Positions 1 through 57,055 of a stretch of DNA of 64,000 bases are shown one piece after another. The translations under genes were made by a program, and so were the position numbers. The notes under the pieces were generated by a model. It was not told where the DNA came from. It worked only from the letters and a program-made list of their open reading frames with translations, and made no database searches. The stretch comes from Arcobacter sp. LC1. GTDB lineage: Bacteria; Campylobacterota; Campylobacteria; Campylobacterales; Arcobacteraceae. Every line of letters begins with the position of its first letter. Positions within the stretch are counted from its first letter, which is position 1. The DNA lies in the NCBI GenBank assembly GCA_021378565.1, contig JAACJU010000002.1, positions 1-64,000 of the forward strand, read 5' to 3'.

Positions 1-155
1 ACGGATGTGATAAGAGCTGAAAGCATCTAAGCTCGAAGCCAACTCTAAGATGAACTTTCCCTGAAGACCCCTCTAAGACTAAGAGGTTGATAGGCTAGGT
101 GTGTAATCATTGTAAGATGTTTAGCTGACTAGTACTAATAGGTCGTTCGGCTTAT
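1..155 (+). rRNA. rrl: 23S ribosomal RNA, 3' end (partial)
   Basis: This is the 3' terminal part of a 23S rRNA gene; the rest lies upstream of the window. It carries the conserved end of domain VI, including the GACTAGTACTAATAGGTCG stretch near 128-146, and appears to end at about 155, just after CGGCTTA. A 5S gene follows on the same strand, which fits the usual rRNA operon order. The exact 3' end is estimated from homology. Confidence 0.93.
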
Positions 156-561
156 TTTTTAGTATTCTATGGATTACTATCTTTTTAAGTGTATATGTTT
201 TTATATGCTTATTGTGTTTTTTAAGACTTTAACAATAATTCTCATTGAGTTGAGAATAAAGTAAATATGTAAATGTGTTTTTTTATTTAGAGATATTTCT
301 TTTTGAAAGATTTATTTATATTTAGGAATGTTTCTTTTTGAAAGATTTGTTTCTTTGAAATATGTTTATATTTAGAAATGTTTCTTTTAAGTATGTTTGT
401 TTAAAAGATTTGTTTCTTTTAGAATATGTTTTATATTAAGAATATTTCTTTTAAGTATGTTTGTTTAAAAGATTTGTTTCTTTGGAATGTCTTTTTATAG
501 AATATGTTTATATTTAGGAATGTTTCTTTTAAGTATGTTTGTTTATTTTATTCTCAATTTT
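156..561. repeat. AT-rich 23S-5S spacer with imperfect direct repeats
   Basis: This 406-base spacer holds no gene. A block beginning TTTCTTTTAAGTATGTTTGT recurs at about 381, 445 and 523, and again at about 895, upstream of the second 5S-like copy. A shorter motif, TTTCTTTTTGAAAGATTTG, appears near 298 and 329. The copy at 523 sits just before 5S copy 1 and the copy at 895 just before copy 2, so the spacer seems to have been duplicated together with the 5S unit. Confidence 0.7.
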
Positions 562-678
562 TTGGTGGCTATAGCAAAGTGGAAATACCTAGTCCCATCT
601 CGAACCTAGCAGTCAAGCACTTTTGCGCTGATAATACTACAGGGTTCCCCTGATGGAAACGTAAGTCGCTGCCAAATT
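562..678 (+). rRNA. rrf: 5S ribosomal RNA (copy 1, apparently intact)
   Basis: This is the first of five 5S-like units and the only one downstream of the 23S gene with standard geometry. The 5' arm TTTGGTGGC can pair with the 3' arm GCTGCCAAA, apart from a G-U wobble. The loop region around CACTTTTGCGCTGATAATAC and the GGAAACGTAAGTCG segment are present. Ends are approximate. It is the best candidate for the functional gene. Confidence 0.85.
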
Positions 679-932
679 TGAGATGTTTTTATTTAATTTA
701 TTCTTATTTCTATTCTTAATTTATTTCAAAATATCATTTATCCTATTATTTTTTTTATCTTTTTTAAAATATATTTATTTATATTTAATGCTATATATTT
801 TATTTTTTTGCATATATAATGTAGTTTATTTATTTTATGTATGTTTATTTTAAAATATGTTTGTTTATTTTGTGATATGTTTATATTTTAAATGTTTCTT
901 TTAAGTATGTTTGTTTATTTTATTATCATTTT

Positions 933-1050
933 TTTTGAGGACAAAAGCAAGTGGAAATACCTAGTACCATAGCAACCTAAAGTCCAAGCACTTTTGCGCT
1001 GATAATACTACAGGGTTCCCCTGATGGACAGTCAAGTCCCTTGCCAAATT
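933..1050 (+). pseudogene. Degenerate 5S rRNA copy 2
   Basis: The middle (GTGGAAATACCTAG through TGCGCTGATAATACTACAGG) matches copy 1 closely. The terminal stem is damaged: the 5' arm reads TTGAGGACA and the 3' arm GTCCCTTGCCAAA, and GATGGAAACG is replaced by GATGGACAG. The downstream spacer (GAGATGTTTTTATATAATTT) is shared with the other copies, so this looks like a duplicated unit that has drifted. It is probably not a working 5S gene. Confidence 0.75.
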
Positions 1051-1316
1051 TGAGATGTTTTTATATAATTTATTCTTATTTCTATTCTTAATTTATTTCA
1101 AAATATCATTTATCCTATTAATCTTTTTATTTTTTTTTGAATATATTTATTTATATTTATATTTAAATTTGTTTGTTTATTTTATTATCTATTTATTTCT
1201 TTTGATTTTAAAATCTTATTTTATGACTTTATCTTTAATGCTATATTTTTTTTGCATATATAATTTATTTTATGTATGTTTGTTTTAAAATATGTTTGTT
1301 TATTTTATTCTCAATT

Positions 1317-1436
1317 TTTTTTGAGGACAAAAGCAAGTGGAAATACCTAGTACCATAGCAACCTAGCAGTCAAGCACTTTTGCGCTGATAATACTTACAG
1401 CTTGCCCTGATTGATAGTGAAGTCACTTGCCAAATT
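1317..1436 (+). pseudogene. Degenerate 5S rRNA copy 3
   Basis: It shares the damaged 5' arm TTGAGGACAAAAGCAAG with copy 2, keeps GTGGAAATACCTAGTACCAT and TTTTGCGCTGATAATACTTA, then diverges (CAGCTTGCCCTGATTGATAG). The 3' arm is AGTCACTTGCCAAA, which cannot form the normal terminal stem with the 5' arm. The flanking spacer resembles those after copies 1 and 2. Confidence 0.75.
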
Positions 1437-1648
1437 TGAGATGTTTTTATATAATTTATTCTTATTCTTTAATTTTTCACTTATTTTTATTATTCTTTTT
1501 ATTTCAAAATCTTATTTATTTTCTTAGTGACTTTAGCAATGTTTTCATAAAATTACTTTTTATACTTTTTGACTTTAATTGTAATCTTATAATGTATTTA
1601 TTTACAGAATTTATTTTTTAAAATATGATTGTTTGTTTTATTCTCAAT

Positions 1649-1778
1649 TTTTGGTGGCTATTATTTGTTATAATTAAAGTGGAAATACCTAGTACCATAG
1701 CAACCTTGCAGTCAAAGCACTTTTGCGCTGATAGTGCTTACAGCTTGCCCTGATGGAAACGTAAGTCGCTGCCAAATT
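1649..1778 (+). pseudogene. Degenerate 5S rRNA copy 4 with an insertion near the 5' end
   Basis: Both terminal arms are normal again (TTTGGTGGCTA and AACGTAAGTCGCTGCCAAA, as in copy 1). About 15 extra bases (TTATTTGTTATAATT) sit between GGTGGCTA and AAAGTGG, and there are several substitutions, including ATAGTGCTTACAGCTTGCCC. A transcript would have a disrupted helix I/II junction. The mix of intact and damaged segments suggests gene conversion between copies. Confidence 0.72.
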
Positions 1779-1950
1779 TGAGATGTTTTTATATAATTTA
1801 TTCTTATTTCTATTCTTAATTTATTACTTACTTTTATTATTCTTTTTATTTCAAAATCTTATTTATTTTTTTAATGATTTTAACTTTATTATACTATATT
1901 TTACTAAATATATATTCATCGCCTTATAATTTTTAAATGAGAAATTATTT

Positions 1951-2070
1951 GTTAGCTAGTATTTGCCATAATTAAAGTGAAAATTTCTAGCACCACCCTT
2001 TGAGCATAGCATTTGCGCCGATAATACTTATAGCTTGCTCTGATGAGCAGTTATTCACTTGCCAAATTTT
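1951..2070 (+). pseudogene. Degenerate 5S rRNA copy 5 (most diverged)
   Basis: Only fragments are recognisable: ATAATTAAAGTGAAAATTTC, TTGCGCCGATAATACTTATA and CACTTGCCAAATTTTAGATG. It shares the inserted TTTGCCATAATTAAAGTG-type 5' end with copy 4. It is the farthest from the 23S gene and the most decayed, consistent with a gradient of age or of conversion. Confidence 0.65.
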
Positions 2071-2154
2071 AGATGTTTTTGGCATTCTATTAAAATTTAA
2101 TCCAGTGATTTTAATTTCAATATTGTATTTAACACGTTTTATTATAGTTTTATT

Positions 2155-21252: not shown

Positions 21253-22602
21253 ATGTTTAAAAAAATAATCTTAGTCATGCTTGTAACAAGTGGCTTGTTA
21301 TTTGCGGCTAAAGTAGGCGATGTTACGGGGACTAAAACATTAAAAGTCGATATGAATATGACAAAGTTAGCAGCTTCATGTGTACAATGTCATGCCAAAA
21401 AAACACCTGGTCAGGTGAATGAGTGGCGAAAAAGTAGACACGGACACGTTGGGGTTTCATGTCTTGATTGCCATGTGGTTAAAAAAGACAGTCCTTTGGC
21501 TGGACAAAATTGCCCAGGTGTAAAAGGAACTAACACTTATATCTCAGTTGTAGTTACTCCAAAAACTTGTAAAAGATGCCATCCAAATGAAGTCAAACAA
21601 TTTGACCAAAGTGGACACGCAAGAGCAGCTATTCAAATTAAATCTAAAGCTGGTATGCAAGCTTTGATGCATAAAGTTGAAGCTATGGGAGACCATAAAT
21701 TTATAAATTCTCCTGAAGCAACTGGTTGTATGCAATGTCATGGTACAGTTGTTAAAGTTAAAAATGGAGTTCCAGATCCTGCTACTTGGCCAAATATTGG
21801 TATAGGTAACGTTTATCCTGATGGAAGTGTTGGAAATTGTATTTCTTGCCATAGTGGACATTTATTCTCTATAGCAGAATCAAGAAAACCAACTGCTTGT
21901 GCATCTTGTCACTTGGGACCTGATCATCCAGATAAAGAGATTTATAACAACTCTCAACATGGACACATATTTAATTCTGAAGGTTCAACTTGGAATTATA
22001 CTGCAGCACCTGACGCTTGGGAAGCAGGAGATTATAGAGCTCCAACTTGCGCGGTTTGCCATATGAGTGGAATAGGTTCTTTAAAATCAACTCACAATGT
22101 AAGTTTGAGATTAAAATGGAATCTTTGGGCACCAATTTCAAAATTAAGAAATGGCGGTTATGAAACTGCAGTTCCAAATTATTTGAAAAAAGGTAAATTT
22201 ACTAAAGGAAATCCATTAGCTGGAAATCCAAAAGGTAGTGCAGCGGCACGTGCGCAAATGAAATTAGTTTGTAAATCTTGTCACGTAAAAACATTTACTA
22301 ATAACTTCTTTATAATGGCAGATCAACATGTAGGACTTTACAATGTTTATGCTAAAGAAGCTAAAAAAATGTTTGATACTCTTAAAAAAAGAGGGCTTAT
22401 CAAAAAAGACAAATGGTCTGATACCGTATTTAAAACTTGGTACCATTTATGGCATCATGAAGGTAGAAGAATGAGACAAGGCGCTTTAATGGGTGGATCT
22501 GATTTTGCTCACTGGAATGGAGTATTCGTACTTCAACAAGACATTAGAGTTATTAGAACCATTTACAATAAAAGAATGAAAAGTGGTAAAATAGAAGATT
22601 AA
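21253..22602 (+). CDS. haoA: Octahaem cytochrome c of the epsilonproteobacterial Hao type
   Basis: This 449-residue protein has a signal peptide (cleavage near FAA, residue 19) and eight CxxCH sites: CVQCH, CLDCH, CKRCH, CMQCH, CISCH, CASCH, CAVCH and CKSCH. The C-terminal YHLWHHEGRRMRQGA and FAHWNGVFVLQQD regions resemble hydroxylamine oxidoreductase. Known epsilon-Hao enzymes reduce nitrite and hydroxylamine to ammonium in the periplasm rather than oxidise. It is coupled to haoC and followed by a strong terminator. Confidence 0.88.
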   Translation: MFKKIILVMLVTSGLLFAAKVGDVTGTKTLKVDMNMTKLAASCVQCHAKKTPGQVNEWRKSRHGHVGVSCLDCHVVKKDSPLAGQNCPGVKGTNTYISVVVTPKTCKRCHPNEVKQFDQSGHARAAIQIKSKAGMQALMHKVEAMGDHKFINSPEATGCMQCHGTVVKVKNGVPDPATWPNIGIGNVYPDGSVGNCISCHSGHLFSIAESRKPTACASCHLGPDHPDKEIYNNSQHGHIFNSEGSTWNYTAAPDAWEAGDYRAPTCAVCHMSGIGSLKSTHNVSLRLKWNLWAPISKLRNGGYETAVPNYLKKGKFTKGNPLAGNPKGSAAARAQMKLVCKSCHVKTFTNNFFIMADQHVGLYNVYAKEAKKMFDTLKKRGLIKKDKWSDTVFKTWYHLWHHEGRRMRQGALMGGSDFAHWNGVFVLQQDIRVIRTIYNKRMKSGKIED

Positions 22603-42732: not shown

Positions 42733-42924
42733 ATGAGTGATAATATAAAAGCAAATATAATTTTACATTTTTTCATACTTTTAAATCTTGCAGTTTCTTG
42801 TCTTGGGATTTATGTAATATTTCCTTGCTTTGCAAAAATAGCTTTTTCCTTAATTTTATTTTTTATTCCTTTATCACTAATTATTATCACTCTAATAATT
42901 TCTTATAAAGAAAACAAACAATGA
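42733..42924 (+). CDS. Small prophage membrane protein upstream of portal
   Basis: This 63-residue protein has a short polar start (MSDNIKAN) and two hydrophobic segments (about 10-31 and 36-56). It begins 6 bases after the TATAAT of the palindrome-promoter, so the transcript would be nearly leaderless. It overlaps the portal start by four bases. Function unknown. Confidence 0.6.
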   Translation: MSDNIKANIILHFFILLNLAVSCLGIYVIFPCFAKIAFSLILFFIPLSLIIITLIISYKENKQ

Positions 42925-44144
42925 TAAATTTATTAAATTCATTCAAGCCAAGAGTTGAAGAAAACGGAGGGCTATTTCAAAGTCTAAATCCCTTTAGCTC
43001 GATTGGTGAAAATATTACAAGTTCAAGAGCCTTAGCTCACACTTGTGTTTTTGCTTGTAATAAGATTTTGTCTGAGAGTATCGCAAGTTTACCGTTAGTT
43101 TTATATAAAAAAGATGGCAAAAACAAAGAAAAAGCAAAAGAACATCCACTTTATAATATTTTAAAACACCCAAATAGCGAAAACACAAGCCTAGAATGGC
43201 GAGAAATGATGATAACAAGCCTAAATCTAAAAGGCAATCATTACACACAAATTATCAGAGACGGTAAAAATAATATTTTAGAACTTATGCCTTTAGACAC
43301 TGATAGAATGAGCATTAAAAGATTAGAAAAATCAAAAGAGCTAGTCTATATTTATAAATATGATGATGTGAACGAATATCCTTTGAAGTTTGAAGAAGTT
43401 TTACATGTAAAAGGCTTAAGTCTTGATGGTGTTTACGGACTTAGCCCAATAACATATAATAAAGAAGCTATATCGTTATCTTGCGCAGTTGAAAAGTTTG
43501 GCTCTAAATATTTTGCAAATGGAGCGACACCAAGCGGAGCTTTAAGCGTGGCTGGAACTTTGAGTGAAGATGCCTTTAAAAGATTAAAAGAGCAGTTTGA
43601 GGAAAGTTATACAGGCTTAATCTCAGCACATAAGCCTTTAATCTTAGAAGGTGGTTCAACTTTTGAAAAAATATCTATGAGCAATGAAGATAGTCAGTTT
43701 TTAGATACAAGAAAATATCAAAAGACAGATATTGCAAGTATTTTTAGAGTACCGCCGCACATGATTGGAGATTTAGAGCGAGCTACTTTTTCAAACATAG
43801 AGCAGATGAGCCTAGAATTTGTGATTTATTCTTTATTGCCTTGGCTTACTAGAATAGAACAAGCTATGCAAAGAGATTTGTTATCTGTAGCAGATAGAGC
43901 AGATGGATATTTTATAAAACATAACCTATCAGCACTTTTAAGAGGTGACCAAGCAAGTAGAAGTGAGTTGTATAAAAACTATATCCAAAATGGAATCTTT
44001 AGCATAAATGATGTCTTAGAACTTGAAGATAGAAATCCTACCGATTTAGGAGATAAGAGATATTTTCCTTTAAATTTCGCAACTTTAGAAGATATTCATA
44101 ATGGCACAAATTTAAAAAACAAGGAGGTAAAAAATGAGAGCTAG
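42921..44144 (+). CDS. Phage portal protein, HK97 family
   Basis: This 407-residue protein has the HK97 portal signatures: ALAHTCVFACNKILSESIAS, LKHPNSENTSLEWREMM, FSNIEQMSLEFVIYSLLPWL and LEDRNPTDLGDKRYFPLN. Twelve copies form the DNA entry channel at one capsid vertex. It is coupled to the preceding membrane protein and overlaps the protease by 11 bases. Confidence 0.93.
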   Translation: MINLLNSFKPRVEENGGLFQSLNPFSSIGENITSSRALAHTCVFACNKILSESIASLPLVLYKKDGKNKEKAKEHPLYNILKHPNSENTSLEWREMMITSLNLKGNHYTQIIRDGKNNILELMPLDTDRMSIKRLEKSKELVYIYKYDDVNEYPLKFEEVLHVKGLSLDGVYGLSPITYNKEAISLSCAVEKFGSKYFANGATPSGALSVAGTLSEDAFKRLKEQFEESYTGLISAHKPLILEGGSTFEKISMSNEDSQFLDTRKYQKTDIASIFRVPPHMIGDLERATFSNIEQMSLEFVIYSLLPWLTRIEQAMQRDLLSVADRADGYFIKHNLSALLRGDQASRSELYKNYIQNGIFSINDVLELEDRNPTDLGDKRYFPLNFATLEDIHNGTNLKNKEVKNES

Positions 44145-45006
44145 TAAATTATTAGCTAATAAAATATTTGCAGTTGAGGCTGAATATTTTAAGGGAGTTT
44201 TAGAGTTTTTAAACTCAAATGACAAATACGAGGCAAAGGATTTTACTCCAGATAGTGGCTCTAGTGCTATGTCCGTGCAAGGTGATACTGCATTTTTGAG
44301 TATTAAAGGTGCGATTTTTGCTTATGCAAATGTCTTCACACAAATTTGTGGAGGCACAAGCTTAGATACCTTAACACAAGATTTTAATCTATGCTTAGAA
44401 AATCCAAATATTAAAAATATTATTTTTCTAAGTGATAGTCCAGGAGGTGAAGCAAAAGGCATAAGTGAATTAGCAAATAGTATCTACCAAGCGAGAAATA
44501 AAAAAAATATTGTTTCTTATGTTAGTGGCTCTTGTTGTTCAGCAGCTTATTGGCTATGTTCTGCAACTTCAAAGATATATGCTGATAAAACTGCGCTTAT
44601 TGGCTCAATTGGTGCGATGCTTAGCATAAGCGATGATAGCGAAGCATTAAAAAAAGATGGCATCAAAAATATAAATATTATCTCAAGTGTAAGTCCTAAA
44701 AAAAATGAAGATATAAACACACCTGAGGGCTTAAAATCTTTACAAAAAATAGTCGATGAATTAGGACTTATTTTTGCTACAGATGTAGCAAAAGCTAGAG
44801 GTATTGACCTTGAAAAAGTAAAGAGTGATTTTGGTCAAGGTGGTGTAATGCTTGGAATGCAAGCAAAAACACAAGGTTTAATAGATGAAATCTCAAGTTT
44901 GCAGGAGGTAGCACAAATTTATATGCAAGCACAAAACACAACAGCTAAAAATATGTCCTTTGAACATCGTTCAAGAAAATTAAAATTATTAAAACTAGGA
45001 GTTTAA
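44134..45006 (+). CDS. Head maturation protease, S49 (SppA-like)
   Basis: This 290-residue protein has the S49 fold: LSDSPGGEAKGISELANSI, SYVSGSCCSAAYWLCSAT (the Ser/Ala region of the active site) and LIGSIGAMLSI. It should process the capsid scaffold during head assembly. AAGGAGGTAAAA precedes the ATG. Confidence 0.88.
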   Translation: MRASKLLANKIFAVEAEYFKGVLEFLNSNDKYEAKDFTPDSGSSAMSVQGDTAFLSIKGAIFAYANVFTQICGGTSLDTLTQDFNLCLENPNIKNIIFLSDSPGGEAKGISELANSIYQARNKKNIVSYVSGSCCSAAYWLCSATSKIYADKTALIGSIGAMLSISDDSEALKKDGIKNINIISSVSPKKNEDINTPEGLKSLQKIVDELGLIFATDVAKARGIDLEKVKSDFGQGGVMLGMQAKTQGLIDEISSLQEVAQIYMQAQNTTAKNMSFEHRSRKLKLLKLGV

Positions 45007-45008
45007 AA

Positions 45009-46265
45009 ATGAGTATAGAAGAATTAAGAGCTTTAAGATTAAGCAAAATAGAGAAAATGGATGCACTTTTAAAAAAAGGTGAAAACATAAGTGAAGAAGA
45101 AACAAAAAGCTTTGATGCACTTGATAAGTCTCAAGCAGATTTAAAAGCACAAATCCAAAGAAGTGAAAAGCTAAGTTCTTTAAATGAAGAGTTAAGTAAG
45201 CCAACATCAAAAGCTTTTAAAGATGTAAACATTGCAAAAAATGTAGCTGATGATGAAGTTTTAGAAAACACTGGCTTTAAAAACTTTGGAGAATATTTAC
45301 AAGCAGTTCAAGGCGGTGTAGATAGCCGTTTAAATTTCACAGCAGACCAAAGTCTAGGAGTTCCCAAAGAGGGAGGTTTTTTAGTACCGCCTGAGTTTGG
45401 TAAGCTTTTGATTGATTATGATCCAGACCAAAGTTTAGTAAGACCAAGAGCTACAGTTTTGCCAGCCTCAGGAAGTAGTGAAGCTGAGATTAGATTTCCT
45501 TCACTTGACCAAAGTGGTGCTGATAATATGTATGCAGGTGTTAGTGTCTCTTGGCTTGATGAAAACAAACAAATTCCATCTAGTAATTGGAAATTAAAAG
45601 AAATTAGCCTAAGAGCGAAGGGCATCAAAGGATTGATTCCTTTATCAAACGAGCTTCTAAGAAATACCGCGACTTCTTCAAAACTTGCTAGCACTCTTTT
45701 AAGACAAGCTCTAAGTTTTGCTGAGGATGAAGCTTTTATTAGTGGTGATGGAGTTGGTAAACCTACTGGATTTTTGAAAAGTGCTTGTCTTATAAAAAGT
45801 AAAAGACTTCAATCAAATAAAATTAGCGTAGATGATTTACTGCAAATGATTAGCTCATTTAGAGGTAAAAGCCCTCAGTGGATTATTTCAAAAACAGCTT
45901 TTATCCAAATAGCAAATCTAAAAGATAGCGTAGGTAACTTGCTTTGGCAACAAAATGTAATCAATGGCTTTAAAGGTACTATTTTTGGTTATCCTGTGAC
46001 ATTTAGCGATTATATTCCAACACTTGGAACTGTAGCTGATGTTATTTTGGCTGATTTTTCTAAGTATTATATTAAAGATGGACAAGGAATAGTCTTGTCT
46101 ATGAGCTCACATGAAAACTTTAGCTCTGATAAAACATTAATCAAAGCTACTAAGTTTGTAGATGGTAAAGTAGCAACTACTGATAAGATGAATATAAAAG
46201 GTGTTGATTATAGTCCTTTTGTTGCTTTAGATGGCTCTAGTGCTAAAAACACACCTAGTGTTTAA
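45009..46265 (+). CDS. Major capsid protein, HK97 fold
   Basis: This 418-residue protein has an N-terminal coiled-coil delta domain (SIEELRALRLSKIEKMDALL) and a HK97 core (SLGVPKEGGFLVPPEFGKLL, LRAKGIKGLIPLSNELLRN, DEAFISGDGVGKPTGFL). The delta domain is normally removed by the protease encoded just before. Confidence 0.93.
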   Translation: MSIEELRALRLSKIEKMDALLKKGENISEEETKSFDALDKSQADLKAQIQRSEKLSSLNEELSKPTSKAFKDVNIAKNVADDEVLENTGFKNFGEYLQAVQGGVDSRLNFTADQSLGVPKEGGFLVPPEFGKLLIDYDPDQSLVRPRATVLPASGSSEAEIRFPSLDQSGADNMYAGVSVSWLDENKQIPSSNWKLKEISLRAKGIKGLIPLSNELLRNTATSSKLASTLLRQALSFAEDEAFISGDGVGKPTGFLKSACLIKSKRLQSNKISVDDLLQMISSFRGKSPQWIISKTAFIQIANLKDSVGNLLWQQNVINGFKGTIFGYPVTFSDYIPTLGTVADVILADFSKYYIKDGQGIVLSMSSHENFSSDKTLIKATKFVDGKVATTDKMNIKGVDYSPFVALDGSSAKNTPSV

Positions 46266-52954: not shown

Positions 52955-55900
52955 ATGAGTAAAACTATAGGTTCAGTTGTTATAGATATTGAAGCCAATA
53001 CTCAAAAACTAACTGAGGGCTTTACTAGAGCTGAGCGAAGAGTTAAAAAAACACAAAGTGCTATGAAAAGTACTCTTATGGGCTTAGCAGGTGCTTATAT
53101 GGGATTTGCTGGAGTTAGAGCATTTAAAAATCTTATATCTGATAGCATTACTAGTGCTGATAGTTTAGGAAAAATGGCTCAAGCTTTAGGAATGAGTACC
53201 AAAGGATTAAGTGAGTTAAAATATGTTGGCTCTTATGCTGATGTTGGCATAGTTAAGCTAGACAAAGCTATTGGTGCTATGGTTCGTAGAATGAATAACT
53301 TCAAACGAGATGGCACAGGTGCAAGTATAAAAGCTATGCATGAGCTCGGCATTTCTGCTTCATTTGCAAGACATAGCTTTACAAGTGTAGATAAAACTTT
53401 TAGTATTATTATGCAAAGACTTCACCAGCTACCAAGAGGGTTTGAAAAAACTTCCATAGCTCAAGATATATTTTCAAAAAATGCTGCAGGAGTTCTAAGA
53501 ATTTCTGATTTATCAACACAGCAGTTTAAAAAATTAAGCCAAGAAGGACAAAAGCTTGGACTTGTTTTTGGTGATGATATAGCAAACAAAGCAGCAAAAC
53601 TTGATGATACTTTAAATCTTTTACATAAGCATTTTGAGGGTTTAGGAAACAAAATAGCTTTTAAATTACTTCCTACTTTAAATGCCTTAGGGGACAATCT
53701 AAATAAAAATTATGATGTTTATGTAAATGATATTAAAATCCTTAGCAAAATTGTAGGGTATTACTTAGCTTATAAAGTAGCTATTTTTGGACTTAAAAAA
53801 GCGATTATTGGTATAAATCTTATTTCAAAAGTTTATTTGGTAACTAGCAAGTCTTTGCTTGTTGCTTCAAGAGTTCAAGCCATATCTTCTAAAGAAAATA
53901 TAAAAATACTTGTAGCCTTAAGAAGGGCAATGAGATTGACTGCTATAAGTACAGATGTATTAAAAGCTTCTTTGATAACTTCTGGTATAGGTGCAATAGT
54001 TGTAGGACTTGGATTTGCTGTTGAGTATTTTTTAAATAAAAGCGATAAAGCCAAAATAAGTGCTGATAATTTTTCAAAATCTTTAGATAAATTAGGTAAA
54101 AACAAAGGCATAAAAAGCCTAAATCAACAACTTGATGAAACTAAAAATAAATTAAAAAAACTTAGTAATATGCCAAAAGGTAGCTTAGCATCTTATGCTT
54201 TTTCTAATGGTGATGAAAAAAAGCGCTTAACTAAAAAAATTGCAAATTTACAAGAAAAAATAAACTTAAAACAACTAAAATCACCTAGCGATTATATGCC
54301 AAATAAAAAAGCTAGTGAACTAGTTACTTATTATGAAAGTCAAGCACAATATGCAAAAGCTTGGCTTATTAAAAAAGAGCTTTTAGAACAAAAATATGAT
54401 AGCTTAAATTTTAAACAAAAAACTAAACTTATTGAGTCTTTGCATAAAAAATATGAAAATTCTCATAAAGTAGATTTAGCTTCTTGGCAAGCTTATTATG
54501 AAAAACTAGGAGATTTTAGTGCATCTTGGTATTTAAAAGAAGAGACTTTAAAACAAAAATACCAAAAAATGAATTTAAGTAAAAAAGATGTAAATCAAGC
54601 TTTAGATAGAGATAAAAAAGATTATTTTAAAGAAAATATTTATAATAATATTGATTCAACTATAAAAAGTTCTTCTTTAGAAAATCTTACTAAAAATACT
54701 AATGATTTAATAAAAAAATTAAAAACAACATTAAAGGGAAATGAATTTGAACTTGCCAAGACAAGAGCAAACAAAGATCACGATATTAAATTAAAAAAAT
54801 TAAGAGACAAACAAAATAAACAATTTTTTATAGACTTAAATAAAAGTTTTAGTGATGCTCTTTCTAAAAGTTTAACACAAGCTATAATGCAAGGCAATCT
54901 TAATTCTAAACAGCTTTTAACTATTGCTTCAAATTCTTTAAAACAAAGTGGGCAAAGTAAAATATCAAGTTCTTTAAGTTCAGGTTTTAGCTCTTTGCTA
55001 AGTGGTGGTGGCTTTGGCATGAGTAATCTATATACTATGGGTGCTGGTCTTGCACTTACTGCACTTGGCGATATTATGGCTCCAGCAACAAAGACTTTAA
55101 TAAAAAGTGAAAACTATTTAAGTCAAATAGTAATAAACACACAAAATCTAGGACAAAGACAAGATATAAATAAAAGTCTTAATGGATATTTTTCTAGTAA
55201 TATTTTTTCAAATCCTTTTTTAAAAAATGCAAAACAACAAAGTATTTTATCAGGTCCAAAATATAGAAATATTATGCCTTATTCATTTTCAAGAGATGCC
55301 ATACCTAAACAAAAATACTATGAGCTAAGAACTCAAAAAGTCTTTAACGCACAAGATATTGCTAATAGATTTGATAAACTTTATTCAAATATGCAAAATG
55401 CCAATCAAGAAGTTTTGACAAAAATAGGCACAAAGACTTATCATGTTTATAAAAAAGGATTTTTGGGCATTGGGCATGAAAACTATAATTACACAGTAGA
55501 CATCATGAAGACTTTTACTAAAAAACACATTCAAACTATGGCTTTTTTATCTCAATTTGGCATAGATAAATTAGGCAAACTGACAAAAGATGGAATAGCT
55601 AAATTTACCAAAGCTTTTAGTGACTTAACAAACACTTTTTATAATATTTCTAAAAATGGATTAACAAAAACTCAAAGTCTACAACAAGACTTAGACAAGT
55701 TAAATCTAAGTGCTTTAAAAACAAATTTTATTGATAAGTATAAAGGTGATTTTGAAAGTTTAGGACTTGACTTAAATAAGATGACTCAAAACTCTATGAG
55801 TTTTTATTTAAATCAAGCAAACATCTCAAAACTAATCACAAAAGATAGCTCTTTAAATATTGGTGATTTGAGCAAAGCTACTAAAGAGCTAAACCTTGCT

Positions 55901-57055
55901 TATAAAAAAGAAAAGGAGCTAAAATCTGCTATTTATGATGCTTTTGTAAAAAATCAAAACTATGATAAGGCACAATTAGTCTTAAAACAAAATGCTTTTA
56001 AAGCTCAAGATTTAAGCCTTTTAAATAGTACACAAGCAGTTTATAGTTTTGTGAACTCTCTTGATAGTTTTAATGCAAGTATTGATAAAACTATTGACAA
56101 ATTAAAAACAGGTGCAAACACAAGTAACACTTCACTCATTAGCTCTTTTTGGAGTAAAGAAAAAGAAGCTAAGGGTCTTTTAGCTAAGGGTAGTTTATCT
56201 AAAGATGAAAAGCTACATTTAAAAGATTTAGTGGCTCAGATACAAAGCTTAAGTACAAACATTCAAAGTAAAAGCACAAATGCAAATAAAGCACAGATTA
56301 CAAGTAATTTGTTAGCTCAACTTCAAGATTTGAAAAAAGCTATTGCAGATTCTAAAAATAGTTTAAATAAAAATGCTATAACTTCTTTAGTTAAACTTGC
56401 AAGCCTAAACCAAAATCAAACAAAAGACTTGACTAAATTTTTAAGTCTTGGAAAAATATCTCAAGCTGAATTGTTAAAACTTAATCTTTCAAAAAGTCAA
56501 AATACTAAATTAATATCTAGTCTAGATAAATTAGGACTTTTAGTTAAATCTTCTAGCTTAGATGATTTAGTCAAAAAACAAAATTCTTACACAAAAGATT
56601 TAAAAGCTCTTTTAGCAAAAACCTCTTTAAATCTGCAAGACTTTAAAAGTGGAAAAGATTTGAGTGCTATTAAGGATTTAAAACTTCAAAGCCTATTTTC
56701 TTATAAAACAAAAAGCAAAGAAGATGAAGCAAAAGAACTGCTAAGAGTAAAACAAGAACTTAGTTTTTTATCTTTAGAGGATAAAGCAAGTGCAAGTGCA
56801 GATTTACAAAAGTTAAAAGCTAGCAATAAAGATATTTATGCTGACACTATGCAGATTTTAAAATCCTTTGGAACAAGCTATAAAGCTCAAATACCTACTA
56901 TCAAGCAACAAGTAAAACCATCAAAGCCAAATATAGTGGCTAACAAGCTTGATGACTTAACTACGATTACAATAGCTCAAGCAAATGAAATAAAAGCTAT
57001 GAAAAAAGAGCTAATTTTACTAAATGATAAAACTCCCATGCAAGGAGTTGTTTAA
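52955..57055 (+). CDS. Tail tape measure protein
   Basis: This 1366-residue protein is the longest in the prophage and follows the G/GT pair as expected. N-terminal features: TEGFTRAERRVKKTQSAMKS, SADSLGKMAQALGMSTKGLS and FAVEYFLNKSDKAKISADNF, with hydrophobic stretches around residues 340-355 and long coiled-coil repeats. C-terminal KLDDLTTITIAQANEIKAMK is amphipathic. It sets the tail length. No frameshift is seen in its 4.1 kb, in contrast to the packaging genes. Confidence 0.92.
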   Translation: MSKTIGSVVIDIEANTQKLTEGFTRAERRVKKTQSAMKSTLMGLAGAYMGFAGVRAFKNLISDSITSADSLGKMAQALGMSTKGLSELKYVGSYADVGIVKLDKAIGAMVRRMNNFKRDGTGASIKAMHELGISASFARHSFTSVDKTFSIIMQRLHQLPRGFEKTSIAQDIFSKNAAGVLRISDLSTQQFKKLSQEGQKLGLVFGDDIANKAAKLDDTLNLLHKHFEGLGNKIAFKLLPTLNALGDNLNKNYDVYVNDIKILSKIVGYYLAYKVAIFGLKKAIIGINLISKVYLVTSKSLLVASRVQAISSKENIKILVALRRAMRLTAISTDVLKASLITSGIGAIVVGLGFAVEYFLNKSDKAKISADNFSKSLDKLGKNKGIKSLNQQLDETKNKLKKLSNMPKGSLASYAFSNGDEKKRLTKKIANLQEKINLKQLKSPSDYMPNKKASELVTYYESQAQYAKAWLIKKELLEQKYDSLNFKQKTKLIESLHKKYENSHKVDLASWQAYYEKLGDFSASWYLKEETLKQKYQKMNLSKKDVNQALDRDKKDYFKENIYNNIDSTIKSSSLENLTKNTNDLIKKLKTTLKGNEFELAKTRANKDHDIKLKKLRDKQNKQFFIDLNKSFSDALSKSLTQAIMQGNLNSKQLLTIASNSLKQSGQSKISSSLSSGFSSLLSGGGFGMSNLYTMGAGLALTALGDIMAPATKTLIKSENYLSQIVINTQNLGQRQDINKSLNGYFSSNIFSNPFLKNAKQQSILSGPKYRNIMPYSFSRDAIPKQKYYELRTQKVFNAQDIANRFDKLYSNMQNANQEVLTKIGTKTYHVYKKGFLGIGHENYNYTVDIMKTFTKKHIQTMAFLSQFGIDKLGKLTKDGIAKFTKAFSDLTNTFYNISKNGLTKTQSLQQDLDKLNLSALKTNFIDKYKGDFESLGLDLNKMTQNSMSFYLNQANISKLITKDSSLNIGDLSKATKELNLAYKKEKELKSAIYDAFVKNQNYDKAQLVLKQNAFKAQDLSLLNSTQAVYSFVNSLDSFNASIDKTIDKLKTGANTSNTSLISSFWSKEKEAKGLLAKGSLSKDEKLHLKDLVAQIQSLSTNIQSKSTNANKAQITSNLLAQLQDLKKAIADSKNSLNKNAITSLVKLASLNQNQTKDLTKFLSLGKISQAELLKLNLSKSQNTKLISSLDKLGLLVKSSSLDDLVKKQNSYTKDLKALLAKTSLNLQDFKSGKDLSAIKDLKLQSLFSYKTKSKEDEAKELLRVKQELSFLSLEDKASASADLQKLKASNKDIYADTMQILKSFGTSYKAQIPTIKQQVKPSKPNIVANKLDDLTTITIAQANEIKAMKKELILLNDKTPMQGVV

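Follow-up and report, generated by a model that had tools for sequence, protein, structure and literature searches.

Behind the truncated end of a 23S rRNA gene, one intact 5S rRNA gene is followed by four degenerate 5S-like copies. We judge it likely that the degenerate copies form a tandem array of 5S pseudogenes specific to this lineage, propagated by duplication together with patchy gene conversion and lacking 5S function. The array lies near the beginning of the window (the whole 64,000-nt stretch of DNA analyzed here), which is the start of contig C12 in a draft genome of 1.86 Mb and 26 contigs.

Layout of the 5S array

To separate functional from degenerate copies, we used the gathering score of the RF00001 covariance model (38 bits) as the cut-off for a functional bacterial 5S gene. 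Copy 1 passed, copies 2 to 4 failed, and copy 5 gave no match to the model, being detected by DNA similarity to copy 3 only (Table 1). The scores (93.2 bits versus 24.7 to 28.5) agree with the initial annotation, which described one intact 5S gene followed by degenerate tandem copies. It had also proposed folding each copy with a 5S covariance model; copies 2 to 5 proved not to be near threshold, copies 2 to 4 falling well under it.

Units are spaced 372, 386, about 331 and about 298 bases from start to start, close to the 300 to 385 bases claimed previously. The final ~50 nt of the 23S-5S spacer are found again ahead of copies 2, 3 and 4, and the downstream spacer TTTGAGATGTTTTTATATAATTT, or a variant of it, is common to all five copies and nearly invariant, in line with the similar spacer noted before. 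The initial part (670-836) of the spacer after copy 1 shows 83% identity to the spacer after copy 2. The earlier description of the individual copies likewise held: the terminal stem is changed in copies 2 and 3, copy 4 has copy-1-like ends and an insertion, and copy 5 is fragmentary. Copies 1 and 4 share a 45-nt exact repeat (648/1748) that runs across the 3' end of copy 4.

Nor is the array confined to one place. A comparison with other rRNA operons of the strain had been suggested, and sibling units were found to start contigs C24 (25.1 bits) and C23 (a truncated copy, 89% to copy 3 over 122 nt).

Table 1. Features of the 5S array and the region preceding it, in window positions
Feature	Position	Strand	Evidence
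23S rRNA 3' end, cut at 5' end; contig starts here	1-159	+	LSU_rRNA_bacteria, 115.6 bits
23S-5S spacer, ~400 nt, with AT-rich internal repeats of ~64 nt	160-560	+	
Copy 1, intact 5S rRNA gene	561-677	+	RF00001, 93.2 bits, E 6.8e-20; 34/34 native pairs standard
AT-rich spacer 3' of copy 1	678-932	+	
Copy 2, probable 5S pseudogene, mosaic	933-1049	+	24.7 bits; mosaic test
Copy 3, probable 5S pseudogene without native terminal stem	1319-1435	+	26.9 bits; pair count
Copy 4, probable 5S pseudogene with insertion, native terminal stem kept	1650-1777	+	28.5 bits; exact repeat
Copy 5, 5S remnant with the insertion of copy 4	~1948-2069	+	blastn 84% over 69 nt, E 1.4e-14

The repeats of the 23S-5S spacer number about three to four, arranged in tandem at 280-559. 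Elsewhere, the window carries prophage genes at 42921-46265 (HK97-type portal, S49 peptidase and phage capsid) and, at 52955-57055, a 1366-aa protein without a Pfam match that might, as a guess, be a tape measure protein. A multihaem cytochrome-like protein at 21253-22602 weakly matches the models for hydrazine dehydrogenase and decahaem cytochrome.

Base pairing and ancestry of the degenerate copies

The strongest result concerns the preservation of native base pairs. We placed the substitutions of each copy at random on copy 1 and counted the native pairs that stayed standard. Copy 2 keeps 22 of 33 pairs intact (random mean 23.2), copy 3 keeps 23 of 33 (22.2) and copy 5 keeps 16 of 29 (15.9); for the sibling units the counts are 22 of 33 on C24 (22.4) and 10 of 17 on C23 (11.2). 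By contrast, the functional 5S genes of three relatives, about equally diverged because they are 80-85% identical to copy 1, keep 33 to 34 of 34 pairs (P <= 0.008), and each carries three to five two-sided changes, every one of which is paired. Copies 2, 3 and 5 and the two sibling units thus show no sign of constraint to pair as 5S RNA.

Copy 4 is borderline. Its pairs were counted on the covariance alignment, which favors structure, since the alignment used for random placement misplaced its insertion; on this basis it keeps 29 of 34 pairs (P 0.03), or 20 of 25 when the terminal stem is excluded (P 0.09). Copy 2, counted on the same alignment, is still at random expectation. The 29 pairs speak against the pseudogene reading but are partly due to copy-1-like ends, and because the ends of copy 4 match copy 1 we read its higher count as recent exchange rather than selection. 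This borderline case aside, substitutions are indifferent to structure, as expected of pseudogenes, and homology to the local functional gene includes the non-coding flanks, the pre- and post-spacers being common with copy 1. These results suggest that copies 2 to 5 lack function.

The degenerate copies derive from one damaged founder. The same derived state occurs in at least three degenerate copies at 20 alignment columns, whereas 5000 random trials averaged 1.0 such column and never exceeded 6; this null is crude, since it takes no account of base composition or alignment, yet the difference is large, and such an excess therefore points to a single degenerate founder. Among the shared derived columns, CATAGC-AACC replaces CATCTCGAACC, and the relatives agree with copy 1 at the deleted base. 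Other features are common to subsets of copies: GAGGACAAAAGC at the 5' end of copies 2, 3 and C24, and the insertion of copies 4 and 5.

Some copies are also mosaics. Copy 2 matches copy 1 in its flanks (upstream and downstream spacers) and in the helix IV/V block, while its 5' half is copy-3-like. Run tests on informative sites were significant for copy 2 (P 1e-4) and copy 4 (P 2e-4), though these values are uncorrected for several tests and come from short sequences. The mosaics are most simply explained by patchy gene conversion or some equivalent exchange, the direction of which we infer.

These observations bear on two earlier proposals. The initial annotation saw decay with distance from the 23S gene, which holds for identity to copy 1 (0.82, 0.80, 0.735 and 0.667 for copies 2 to 5) but not for the covariance score, which rises along the array (24.7 < 26.9 < 28.5). 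It also saw a frozen series of duplications; tandem duplication with partial gene conversion is borne out by the mosaic runs (P ~1e-4), whereas separate decay of each copy by distance conflicts with the 20 shared columns where one was expected.

A plausible history would begin when one unit, comprising the last part of the 23S-5S spacer, the 5S gene and the first part of the spacer that follows, was duplicated; short AT-rich repeats probably mediated this step through unequal exchange. One duplicate would then have been damaged and the degenerate founder copied, as the shared derived positions show, with patches swapped among units and with the intact gene, as the run statistics show for the swapping if not for its direction. 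Selection would maintain copy 1 only, copies 2, 3 and 5 giving no sign of it, and divergence would be greatest in the outermost units. This is seen on C12, where the unit bordering unique sequence has diverged furthest, as expected when exchange homogenizes inner units more than outer ones. If transcribed, the copies would add a dispensable trailer to the rRNA transcript.

Assembly and alternative readings

The chief reservation about the array concerns the short-read assembly of a collapsed repeat. It is unlikely, in our assessment, that the array is partly an assembly artefact in which a short-read assembler merged the units of several operons into one path. Contig ends do share exact 55-mers: the first 55 bases of C24 are an exact copy of 1297-1351 (in copy 3), those of C23 an exact copy of 955-1009 (in copy 2), and exactly 55-base overlaps occur at several other contig ends too, the pattern left by a k=55 graph assembler. 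Within the array, two repeats (694/1066, 55 nt; 1042/1770, 56 nt) have the length at which paths can misjoin, and rRNA genes are otherwise almost missing from the assembly. However, the units differ throughout, with most shared stretches below 55 nt, and C23 and C24 each independently carry a degenerate unit, set in unique flanking sequence and followed by different protein genes. Such 5S copies therefore exist whatever their order, although their number and order on C12 could change.

Because the upstream end of an operon was located in just two places, on C21 and on C25, and a whole-genome search returned no full 16S or 23S gene, the operon number is an estimate: about three rRNA operons appear to share an upstream part and to diverge after it, one carrying a single degenerate unit, another two and the third four. 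Under the pseudogene reading, tails of differing length, as deduced from contig ends, would reflect array growth or loss together with exchange between operons. Near the starts of both contigs that open with a degenerate 5S unit there are LysE-family transporter genes (L082:1232-1858 and L081:1772-2398), 95% identical over 685 bp, with differing intervening genes. Right after the degenerate unit of C23, a gene is apparently split into adjoining ORFs (L081:242-1775), with possible frameshifts.

We regard it as very unlikely that the degenerate units are functional 5S-derived RNAs with a new fold closed by GCAAG/CUUGC, for example decoys that bind 5S proteins. Copies 2, 3 and C24 do fold so that a 5' hairpin precedes a GCAAG/CUUGC stem in place of the 5S terminal stem, a possible new stem that counts against the pseudogene reading, and the arm between AAATACC and GCGC is one of the best conserved parts. 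Yet the folding z-scores are ordinary (-0.85 for copy 2, 0.46 for copy 3 and -0.81 for C24), with energies no better than those of shuffles, and non-5S flanks are conserved as well as the arm. The covariation term of the consensus fold is unfavorable (+1.88), and several copies break the GCAAG/CUUGC stem in places. A single two-sided change in 17 pairs, among five sequences that give weak power, falls short of covariation for the alternative fold, and relatives show no homologue. We give minimal credence to the related idea that the units are a family of 5S-derived RNAs, retained with a changed closing stem behind each rRNA operon of this lineage and made with the rRNA, for example as a decoy for proteins that bind 5S.

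It is scarcely probable that the units act as DNA or transcript elements, for instance as promoters or as backup terminators downstream of the rRNA operon: TTGCCA-17-TATAAT, present at 1041-1069 and at 1427-1455, agrees with the consensus at 11 of 12 bases, in sites built from the 5S 3' end and a spacer TATAAT and absent after copy 1, but promoter-like matches in the region show no excess (30 versus 24.7 in shuffles, sd 5.6), no terminator-like sites were found there, and the next genes on C12 (YraN and ThiS) are on the opposite strand.

Distribution and comparison with known 5S arrays

To determine how widely the degenerate units occur, we searched for a signature, AATACCTAGTACCATAGCAACCT, which has five occurrences in this genome, one of them with one mismatch. 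It is absent from 298 other genomes of the order (two mismatches allowed) and from a contig collection in which the window's own species may be left out, and in 103 further genomes of the family it has no match except two at three mismatches that are put down to chance; such a search would miss independent arrays of other sequence. The two three-mismatch matches, in other genera (G047 and G100), lie among ordinary protein-coding genes, have no 5S similarity and were rejected. A plasmid collection gave no match. No second 5S-like unit was found downstream of 5S in the available sequence of 20 relatives (E up to 5). Of the single-contig genomes in the family, most carry between three and nine 5S genes.

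The glutamine synthetase encoded in the window has its best matches mostly in Arcobacter and Aliarcobacter assemblies, at 79-81% identity. The host appears to belong to the Arcobacteraceae and to represent its own genus within the compared set; the relatives indicate this family and not Campylobacter proper, contrary to the earlier mention of a Campylobacter-type genome.

Bacterial rRNA genes are usually clean and uniform. We found no paper on a row of degenerate bacterial 5S genes in the open-access literature, which proves little. The array is best seen as a small record of gene duplication and decay, not as a new working RNA. Its practical importance is modest, but it would offer a natural case of gene conversion spreading damage at rRNA genes, and being resisted, and it is a caution that counts of 5S copies, like short-read assemblies around rRNA operons, can be misleading.

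Extra 5S copies are known from other bacteria: the rrnD operon of E. coli has a second 5S gene inside it (PMC11883441), and Vibrionaceae carry extra 5S copies (PMC5649133). The likeness lies in 5S copies exceeding one per operon. The extras in rrnD and Vibrionaceae are listed as 5S genes, whereas here every extra copy is degenerate, there are four of them in a row, and several operons seem to have them. Arrays of 5S rDNA in eukaryotes form pseudogenes. Concerted together with birth-and-death evolution is described for those arrays (PMC3123226). The two kinds of array are alike in their tandem units, partial homogenization and pseudogene formation; unlike the eukaryotic arrays, the present one comprises few units, lies downstream of a bacterial rRNA operon and has a single functional copy, with the terminal units most diverged.
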